Shown here in pieces: positions 7,451 through 34,705 of a stretch of 37,878 nt of DNA (positions are counted from its first letter, which is position 1; every line of letters begins with the position of its first letter). The notes under the pieces were generated by a model that saw nothing but the letters and a program-made list of their open reading frames with translations, made no database searches and had not been told where the DNA came from. The stretch lies in contig JACROR010000016.1 of NCBI GenBank assembly GCA_016214345.1, positions 1 to 37,878 of the forward strand, read 5' to 3'. Both the position numbers and the translations under genes were made by a program. The stretch is from Candidatus Niyogiibacteriota bacterium (GTDB lineage: Bacteria > Patescibacteriota > Minisyncoccia > JACROR01).

Positions 7451-7804
7451 CTATTTCTTTTTCATCTTGGAGAGCTGCCTTAACGGCACTTCAAATCTTG
7501 CCTTGCTAGGCAATGACCGTTTTGTCCTGCAATTCACGGCAGTGTACTCCACCACCGCCTTGCCTTCCCCGCATTTTACTTCCAGGACTTTTAAAAATCC
7601 CATTTCTTCGACCGAACCCCAGTCTCCGAATTTGAACTTTCTTCCAAGATCATTTTCTATAGGAGCGACATTTCTTATCTTATCCACCTTAAACCCGCCA
7701 TGTACAATAAACATGTCGCCCAAGCTAACCTTGATCGAAAATAGACCCAATAGCCAGCTAAAACTTTTGGGCCTCTTTGCCTCTTCTACCTTAACTACCT
7801 TCAT
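7451..7804 (-). CDS. Hypothetical protein
   Basis: 117-aa ORF upstream of hrcA; no recognised family. Confidence 0.55.
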   Translation of the reverse strand: MKVVKVEEAKRPKSFSWLLGLFSIKVSLGDMFIVHGGFKVDKIRNVAPIENDLGRKFKFGDWGSVEEMGFLKVLEVKCGEGKAVVEYTAVNCRTKRSLPSKARFEVPLRQLSKMKKK

Positions 7805-12089: not shown

Positions 12090-13610
12090 TTAAGGCGTCA
12101 ATGCTCTAAGTATCTTTATTTTATCCGCCTTAGTGGGCATAAATTTCCACCAAGACGGCCAAAATGCCATTTCAGCGCGCTCTATACCATTATATGAATC
12201 AAATATCTCATTCATAGATTTATCCCCTGCCAAAAAATCCTTCCTTATGCCGGCTTCATCAAAAGGCCACGCAAAACGCGCCATTCCTTTTATGCGCACG
12301 GATATTTCACCCTTACCAAAATCCTTACTCACCACATCCTTGGCCAAATCTTGGAAATTAACTATTTCTATGTTTTTTTCGGCATCCTTGCCCAAATAAG
12401 CGGTCGCGACAACTGAAGCAATGTCCGATTCTTTAACAATAATTCCTTGAAACGTGCTAGCCAATTTCACCGATACAGAATCTCCCACCGCGGTAACCGA
12501 AGGACTAACCACCGGAGCATCATAAGAAACCTCTCTGGCTCCGTCTAAAATCACAAATCCATCTGTAATTTGCCTGTCGTATTCCTGATAAATATCTTCG
12601 TCTAATTGTTTTTTAAGCGTAGCGGTCATACTGTCCACGTCTTCTTTCGCCACTATGCGCGCCGTTCCGACAAAACCACCCTCCATTGGCTTAACGGATC
12701 TTCCATAAAACTTCGTAAATCTGGCGGTCCCCTTAAAACCGGGAATCGTAAAATCCGTTAAACCAATATTATATTTTTCACCCGGCTGATCCGCCAAAAC
12801 CTCCGCCTCAATAGAACTCGGCGCAATTTGGCCGTTTTTAATCTCAGCTCCCGGCACGGTAAGTACTTCCGCCGTTCTAAAAATTTTGCCATCCGGCGTT
12901 TCAAATCTGGTACGCCGAGATAATACTTGCGGCTCCGAACTATAAGCGTTATATATCATGATCTTGCCGTGAGCGCGCGCGTTAACATCGCTTAACCCAG
13001 TAGTTTCACCTGATATTTCTTTCATCCGCTTAAAACTAACCACCTCCAAAGGAAAATCAGCCGCGCTATTTTTAGATCCCTTAAAAACCATGTCAACGCT
13101 CATGACTCTTTGGCGTGGAGTTATTTTAATGGTCACATAAGCGAAGAATTTAAGAAATAACCATCCTCCCGCGACAATGATCAAAAACACGCCCAATAAA
13201 ATAGCCTGGCGCGCCCTTGTTTTTTTAACTAAAACGCGATCCGCGTCTCCGCTCATCCCATCGGAAAAATTAGTTTTAACCGTGTCTGCCGTCTTTTTAT
13301 CAGATCGCCGTAACGCAATTCGTTTAAATGCCGACGTCATAAGCTCGCCCATCCTACGAAACGCGGCCTCTAAAATTTTACGCGCGCCATGCGAAAATTT
13401 CGTTAAAACAACGCGATCAGATGGCCGCTTTTCCAAAAGCTTTTTTTCCGTATCTTGGCGTGGCGCGCCACTGGAAGACCCGCCTACCGAGTGGGCAGGC
13501 CTGCCTGCCGGATAAGCAGGCAAGATATCTTGCACCACCCTGCGGCGCGGCAACGCAGCCGCTAATTCTTTACGCGAAATTTGACTCGGGCGTTTGCCAA
13601 ACATGTTCAT
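12090..13610 (-). CDS. Membrane-anchored protein resembling CPR 'baseplate J-like' proteins
   Basis: 506 aa; one TM (AILLGVFLIIVAGGWLFLKFF) then an extended extracytoplasmic beta-rich region. Confidence 0.55.
   Translation of the reverse strand: MNMFGKRPSQISRKELAAALPRRRVVQDILPAYPAGRPAHSVGGSSSGAPRQDTEKKLLEKRPSDRVVLTKFSHGARKILEAAFRRMGELMTSAFKRIALRRSDKKTADTVKTNFSDGMSGDADRVLVKKTRARQAILLGVFLIIVAGGWLFLKFFAYVTIKITPRQRVMSVDMVFKGSKNSAADFPLEVVSFKRMKEISGETTGLSDVNARAHGKIMIYNAYSSEPQVLSRRTRFETPDGKIFRTAEVLTVPGAEIKNGQIAPSSIEAEVLADQPGEKYNIGLTDFTIPGFKGTARFTKFYGRSVKPMEGGFVGTARIVAKEDVDSMTATLKKQLDEDIYQEYDRQITDGFVILDGAREVSYDAPVVSPSVTAVGDSVSVKLASTFQGIIVKESDIASVVATAYLGKDAEKNIEIVNFQDLAKDVVSKDFGKGEISVRIKGMARFAWPFDEAGIRKDFLAGDKSMNEIFDSYNGIERAEMAFWPSWWKFMPTKADKIKILRALTP
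13460..13524. repeat. Composite palindromic insert (family A-related) in the 5' part of the baseplate-J-like gene
   Basis: GTGGCGCGCCAC perfect palindrome; CCTGCCTGCCGGataaGCAGGCAAG; encodes LPAYPAGRPAHSVGGSSSGAP. Confidence 0.6.
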
Positions 13611-27568: not shown

Positions 27569-27604
27569 CCCGCCGAAGCCGAGCTCCAGCGAGGCGAAGG
27601 CGGG
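27569..27604. repeat. Imperfect palindrome family E abutting the tRNA-Trp 3' end
   Basis: CCCGCCGAAGCCGAGCTCCAGCGAGGCGAAGGCGGG; right arm overlaps the tRNA acceptor. Confidence 0.65.
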
Positions 27605-27671
27605 GGTAGTAGGAATCGAACCCACATCAACTGTTTTGGAGACAGTTGTTCTGCCATTGAACTATACCCCC
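27601..27671 (-). tRNA. tRNA-Trp (anticodon CCA)
   Basis: Acceptor GGGGGTA/TACCCCC; anticodon loop CTCCAAA; T-loop TTCGATT. Confidence 0.95.
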
Positions 27672-27687
27672 AAATCCGCCCATCTGT

Positions 27688-27714
27688 CTACCTGGCTATC
27701 CGATAGCCAGGTAG
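27688..27714. repeat. Palindrome family B, copy 1
   Basis: CTACCTGGCTATCCGATAGCCAGGTAG: 13-bp arms around a 1-nt centre; core shared with sod insertion at 34434-34456. Confidence 0.9.
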
Positions 27715-28036: not shown

Positions 28037-28075
28037 TGCGCAGGGAGGCCTGCCTGCCGGCAGGCAGGGATTCAA
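28037..28075 (-). pseudogene. tRNA-Tyr 3'-end fragment with family A palindrome inserted in the T-arm
   Basis: tgcgcagggagg | CCTGCCTGCCGGCAGGCAGG | gattcaa versus intact tgcgcagggagggattcgaa. Confidence 0.85.
28049..28068. repeat. Palindrome family A, copy 2
   Basis: Identical to 2527-2546. Confidence 0.92.
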
Positions 28076-33884: not shown

Positions 33885-34127
33885 TTATAATCCGACATTA
33901 TCAACTCTTTTAACGGAAGAAATTTTTAATTTGAGTATCCGTTCTATTCCTTCTTTTAGCGTCAGTTGAGAAAGAGCGCATCCGCTGCATGCCCCTTGTA
34001 GCGTCACCTCCACCACTCCTTCCCGAAAATCCACAAACTTAACGCGCCCTCCGTGCATGGCAAGCATGGGCGCAATCTCTTTTTCCAAAATTTTTTTTAT
34101 TTTATCTTTAACCGTTATTTTAATCAT
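33885..34127 (-). CDS. NifU C-terminal-domain (Nfu-like) protein
   Basis: MIKITVKDKIKKILEKEIAPMLAMHGGRVKFVDFREGVVEVTLQGACSGCALSQLTLKEGIERIL; ATG overlaps the preceding stop (TAATG). Confidence 0.92.
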   Translation of the reverse strand: MIKITVKDKIKKILEKEIAPMLAMHGGRVKFVDFREGVVEVTLQGACSGCALSQLTLKEGIERILKLKISSVKRVDNVGL

Positions 34128-34705
34128 TATTTTACAAAACGATTTTCCGCTTCTTTCCAATCAATATGACGAAAAAAAACATCTATATATTCACCGCGAT
34201 TCAAGCCGAAGTCCGTAATAAACGCGTGCTCAAACATATCCATCACCAAAATAACGCGGCTGCCAGCCAAATGCCCGACATCATGTTCATTTATCCAGAC
34301 ATTCATTAATTTGTCAGTTTCCGCATCATAAGCCAACGCCACCCAGCCAATGCCTCGCATCGCGCCCGCGGCTCTGAAATCTTTTTCCCATGCGTCATAG
34401 GATCCGAAATCTTTCGCTATCTTTTTATTTATCACCTGGCTATCCGATAGCCAGGTGGAAGACTTGCCGTCTTTCGCCAAATTACCAAAATAAAATTCGT
34501 GCAACCGCATGCCATTCCATTCCCATCCGAAACGGCGCCTCATTTCCGCATACTGCGGCGTGCCAACAGTCGCAACCCCCAACTGTTCTATTAATTTATT
34601 AATATTAGCCACATATCCTTCGTACAACTTAAAATGATTTTTGAGCAAAGTATCGCTCAAAGTTCGCATCCCCAGCAAATATTCATAATTTTTAACCGTA
34701 AACAT
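34127..34705 (-). CDS. Fe/Mn superoxide dismutase family protein with palindrome-encoded insertion
   Basis: LLKNHFKLYEGYV, RLHEFYFGNL, VLVMDMFEHAF; insertion TWLSDSQV. Confidence 0.88.
   Translation of the reverse strand: MFTVKNYEYLLGMRTLSDTLLKNHFKLYEGYVANINKLIEQLGVATVGTPQYAEMRRRFGWEWNGMRLHEFYFGNLAKDGKSSTWLSDSQVINKKIAKDFGSYDAWEKDFRAAGAMRGIGWVALAYDAETDKLMNVWINEHDVGHLAGSRVILVMDMFEHAFITDFGLNRGEYIDVFFRHIDWKEAENRFVK
34433..34457. repeat. Palindrome family B, copy 2 (inside sod)
   Basis: CACCTGGCTATCCGATAGCCAGGTG; 23-bp core identical to 27690-27712. Confidence 0.9.

Follow-up and report, generated by a model that had tools for sequence, protein, structure and literature searches.

A 23-bp REP-like palindrome in a superoxide dismutase gene of a Candidatus Niyogiibacteriota bacterium and its probable RAYT-type transposase partner

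Results

The SOD gene and an intergenic site share an exact palindrome

The window analyzed here, the 37,878 nucleotides of contig JACROR010000016.1 from a Candidatus Niyogiibacteriota bacterium (assembly GCA_016214345.1), carries on the minus strand at 34127–34705 a gene for a 192-aa Fe/Mn superoxide dismutase (SOD), identified by PF02777 (E = 3e-24) and by SODs of the PDB (E values to 2e-24). Within the part encoding the interdomain linker lies the 23-bp palindrome ACCTGGCTATCCGATAGCCAGGT (34434–34456). An exact second copy occupies 27690–27712 in an intergenic space, 3 nt from the stop codon of rpmG (ribosomal protein L33; 27716–27874, minus strand, read from the sequence) and 18 nt from tRNA-Trp on its other side (27599–27671, minus strand, predicted by ARAGORN). 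The identity of the two 23-bp cores, on which the initial annotation of this DNA was built, was thus confirmed and is far above chance; in 100 dinucleotide shuffles ACCTGGCTATCCGATAGCCAGGT never occurred even with 3 mismatches tolerated, which rules out a chance palindrome.

An inverted-repeat scan resolved ACCTGGCTATCCGATAGCCAGGT as an odd palindrome of 11-bp arms around a 1-nt center. With the flanking pairs, the arms reach 12 bp in the SOD copy (C-G, giving the bounds 34433–34457 of the initial annotation) and 13 bp at 27690 (CT/AG). Folding as single-stranded DNA predicts for both copies a hairpin with an energy near −12 kcal/mol and z values between about −6.3 and −6.8. The flanking change from T-A to C-G, previously read as base pairing being kept, is indeed seen, but it is weak evidence because pairing at this position is inconsistent over the 12 copies of the genome described below, with 8 Watson-Crick pairs, 2 T-G pairs, and 2 unpaired.

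The window holds a second perfect palindrome, CCTGCCTGCCGGCAGGCAGG, at 2527–2546 and 28049–28068. It has 19 copies in the same genome at ≤1 mismatch and is present in 24 of the 55 genomes searched; its peptides are PACRQAG- or LPAGR-like, and no transposase partner was found for it. An imperfect palindrome resembling this family occurs at 13479–13520, inside a long ORF (12090–13610), where it encodes LPAYPAGRPAHSVGG.

The palindrome is read in frame in the SOD linker

The SOD copy keeps the reading frame open and encodes TWLSDSQV on the minus strand. In agreement with the earlier claim, neither the frame nor the metal ligands are touched: the gene is open over 34127–34705, and the ligands expected at H24, H69, D156, and H160 are present and conserved. 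The AlphaFold model of the protein (mean pLDDT 88.6) places residues 81–90 (pLDDT 63), the loop position in question, in a low-confidence coil between helices 50–74 and 91–100, outside the ligand motifs.

That the palindrome simply adds its eight residues, however, is not what alignment with related SODs gives. Measured from the RLHE motif to FGS, the linker is the longest here, at 26 aa versus 21–25 aa in 26 measurable relatives, but with a mode of 23 among the latter the net gain is only about +3 aa rather than a clean +8. An 18-aa ancestral linker, as a clean 8-aa insertion would imply, occurs in no relative, suggesting that TWLSDSQV most likely took the place of some linker residues or that its arrival was followed by a loss. 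Some relatives have LSNDS-like residues at the same place (L146). The nearest SOD relative among 383 class genomes searched is 62% identical, too distant for an empty-site comparison.

The palindrome is a lineage-specific repeat

Pattern searches of the own genome (G000; 691,332 bases, a draft of 32 contigs) found 12 copies of the core at ≤3 mismatches, 8 of them exact. Nine of the 12 lie away from the transposase gene on contig C15, after which we call the family, and 8 are intergenic, leaving 4 in reading frames. When the loop length between the outer arms was allowed to vary, no further copies came up in the own genome, and the 12 are not arranged in close inverted pairs of the REPIN/BIME kind. 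With ≤2 mismatches tolerated, no copy was found in any of 54 relatives. Across 85k species genomes there were 2 single matches, roughly as many as an 18-letter pattern would give by chance. Given 12 own copies, none in 54 relatives, and matches elsewhere at about chance, the C15-family palindrome is a lineage-specific repeat. Single matches in Hymenobacter and Chitinophaga and one IMG/VR contig (L056) were taken as unrelated.

Pyrimidines precede and purines follow nearly each of the 12 copies (YY-element-RR). This flank bias is not present in the palindrome family of contig C2, and for that reason no target-site claim is made. Integration linked to tRNA genes was ruled out, only one copy lying near a tRNA.

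A RAYT-type transposase gene is bracketed by the same palindrome

On contig C15, copies at 7652, 8110, and 8311 flank and lie inside one 211-aa ORF, in frame, the downstream copy encoding the C terminus of the protein as TWLSDSQV-stop. The ORF matched NCBIfam REP_Tyr_transpos at E = 9.7e-7 (28.8 bits, under the curated cut-off of 80 bits) and Pfam Y1_Tnp at 18.8 (under the cut-off of 23); REP_Tyr_transpos was matched by 50 of the 53 members aligned with it. The best PDB match of its AlphaFold model (pLDDT 91) was 4er8, in which a REP-associated tyrosine transposase is in complex with a REP hairpin; the IS608 and ISDra2 transposases came next. Both HuH histidines and the catalytic tyrosine (Y133) are invariant in the 53-member alignment. 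By profile match and predicted fold, the ORF is an IS200-like Y1 (HuH) transposase related to REP-associated tyrosine transposases (RAYTs).

One frame of the C15-family palindrome contains TAG. Two copies are read in this frame, one in the transposase (C15:8110) and one in a long ORF (C15:12502); no other copy has a broken arm, and in each of these two TAG has become AAG, which fits selection keeping the frame open.

Most RAYT-type genes are accompanied by their own palindromes

The genome has six Y1 transposase ORFs, five of them with a nearby palindrome, and all five palindromes differ. Copy counts besides those of the C15 family cover two own palindromes, with the palindromes of C3 and C9 left out: ACTTGGAGGTTSAACCTCCAAGT has 8 copies, including 4 that lie within or at its transposase gene, and CTACATAAGTSNSACTTATGTAG has 4. 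Y1 transposases are present in 29 of the 54 relatives. Taking own and relatives' loci together, at least two copies of one palindrome within 300 bp were found at 41 of 56 RAYT loci versus 0 of 34 SOD control loci; the palindrome flanks the gene on both sides at 32 of the 41 qualifying loci and lies inside the ORF at 28 RAYT loci. With palindrome-coded residues masked, palindrome distance tracks RAYT protein distance in a Mantel test that leaves in the shared ancestry of the loci (r = 0.517, p ≤ 0.0002). The palindrome of transposases L127 and L134 occurs in only 6 of 55 genomes. Among the 19 Y1 loci omitted by the motif parser, mostly of NHVH/NHIH or IS200 types, pairing was seen in only 4, indicating that pairing belongs chiefly to the NH[FY]H type. 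In one transposase subclade, each member has its palindrome at the same internal place, downstream of the catalytic tyrosine and in the context VNLNxKVH-[palindrome]-SSW, but the sequence of the palindrome varies by member.

Palindromes occur in other host genes

A conserved own gene on contig C25 contains a dimer of the C2 family, 49 bp made of two palindromes 3 nt apart (L068, 1501–1549). Compared with the 78%-identical gene of a same-family genome (G001), whose site is empty (L186), the dimer adds 48 nt, or 16 codons, in frame, and it is missing from 20 further homologues. The C25 dimer is an additive, in-frame insertion. When palindromes in murD (G035 and G006) and fmt (G031) of relatives were compared with solved homologues, the net changes were 0 and −3 aa, respectively.

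The murD genes of two genomes of one genus (L167 and L180, 1501–1523) carry the same palindrome with a paired base change, read as VHHSVVH and VHHSVMH; the solved MurD 4buc has HSIV at this place. Palindromes of the L127/L134 type are in frame in fmt (G031; L172, 1501–1523) and uvrA (G026; L178, 1501–1523), the latter carrying the variant TGTGCAACAC.

Discussion

Most of what is known of RAYT/REP systems comes from other groups of bacteria, in which the REPs carry GTAG tags. The system described here shares with REPtrons a TnpA-REP-type Y1 HuH transposase with short palindromes on both sides, dispersed copies, and in-frame copies inside the transposase, the last of which Quentin et al. (2018) described for subclass 2.4 (RAYT group 4) transposase genes, with GT[AG]G feet (PMC6006769). 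It differs from subclass 2.4 in lacking this foot, which occurred at 3 of 214 palindrome ends against a background of 2.9%; in having odd palindromes of 23 bp that are near-perfect and have a center of 1 or 3 nt; in copy number and arrangement, with 4–12 copies in the families counted (12 in the C15 family) and a single dimer seen in the C2 family versus usually >100 copies and REPIN/BIME; and in the motifs NH[FY]H and FQ, as against NH[IFV]H, WQ, and YIxNNP listed for subclass 2.4 (PMC6006769). The CGTC tag was found at 0 of the 214 ends, and the two counts of ends together rule out canonical GTAG or CGTC repeats. The palindrome system thus looks and probably works like REP/RAYT, yet it departs from canonical REPs in foot and copy number.

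By motif comparison, the transposases resemble TnpA-Y1 subclass 2.1 (RAYT group 1), for which the motifs given are NHVH/NH[YF]H, W[EQ]/FQ, Y[IV]HLNP, and, downstream, SS (PMC6006769). Among our 53 members, NHFH was counted in 26, NHYH in 23, FQ in 42, and an SS-type motif in 36, and YIHLNP was the commonest tyrosine motif. Automatic and manual searches by Quentin et al. found no REP-like sequences near subclass 2.1 genes (PMC6006769), whereas palindromes accompany 41 of 56 loci here. REPs inside genes, uvrA included, were reported with GTAG or CGTC tags by Di Nocera et al. (2013; PMC3733652). The in-frame palindromes found here, including that in the uvrA of a relative, are similar, but they lack either tag and belong to another host group.

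We conclude that the palindrome is very probably a REP-like, non-autonomous element of the single RAYT-type Y1 transposase on contig C15, which would have mobilized it. The initial annotation had recognized a palindrome that looks mobile and sits in frame in a metabolic gene, and this part of its reading holds; its analogy to Rickettsia palindromic elements (RPEs), selfish inserts specialized for in-frame gene entry without a dedicated transposase, is not the best one. A metabolic gene is entered in frame here and the peptide sits in a loop, as with the in-frame peptides of RPEs in housekeeping genes. The unit, however, is 23 bp, and RPE-1 is longer; 8 of the 12 copies are intergenic; and a RAYT-like HuH gene of this genome has the palindrome both inside it and on either side, which argues for an REP-type rather than a Rickettsia-type element. 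The ends likewise lack CGTC, a tag that connects some RPEs with other repeats and has been reported from the RPE sequences of R. conorii (PMC3733652). An RPE-type origin is accordingly highly improbable. We consider it just as improbable that a regulatory hairpin, acting as terminator or mRNA stabilizer, was spread by functional selection and reached the SOD gene incidentally. The fold is strong and several copies stand a few nt past stop codons (rpmG and an rsmA-like gene), but the T run of an intrinsic terminator is generally missing after the copies inspected, 4 copies lie in reading frames, and the one-to-one pairing with RAYT genes would be left unexplained.

A different route to the same SOD sequence, unlikely but deserving more weight, is that gene conversion or template switching, and not transposition, overwrote native linker sequence, with another palindrome copy as the source. 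The small net gain in SOD, the LSNDS-like residues of some relatives, and the net changes of 0 and −3 aa in murD and fmt would all suit such overwriting. Against it, the 7 further exact copies at unrelated sites need a copying process anyway, and the dimer of the C2 family added 48 nt to its gene.

Under transposition by the RAYT-type protein, the enzyme would recognize the hairpin in single-stranded DNA, its catalytic tyrosine would nick or join the hairpin, and copies would be pasted at new sites. Those landing in genes would persist only where the frame is kept and the loop is flexible. The SOD copy would be such a survivor, acquired through RAYT-driven movement in the linker that joins the two domains of SOD, and it probably has no function for SOD.

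More tentatively, it is possible that in Patescibacteria-like genomes RAYTs are matched one-to-one with 23-bp palindromes in many private recognition pairs, in which the internal copy at its recurring position changes in concert with the flanking copies, and that gene entry often replaces sequence rather than adding it (net +3 aa in sod, 0 in murD, and −3 in fmt), thereby rewriting loops of housekeeping proteins. A literature search, with most subscription journals outside its reach, found no description of such pairs in these bacteria.

In many families of bacteria with small genomes, a transposase type that by its motifs resembles one reported to lack REPs (PMC6006769) has its own palindromes at most of the loci examined. 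In-frame entries occur in sod, uvrA, fmt, and murD as well as in the transposase genes. The dozens of natural transposase-hairpin pairs offer material for studying how specificity changes. For annotation, odd loop peptides such as TWLSDSQV, LGGSTSK, and VHHSVVH are a warning, being mobile-element text. In these very compact genomes, the palindromes are a source of new peptides, which short mobile DNA seems to write into ordinary genes.
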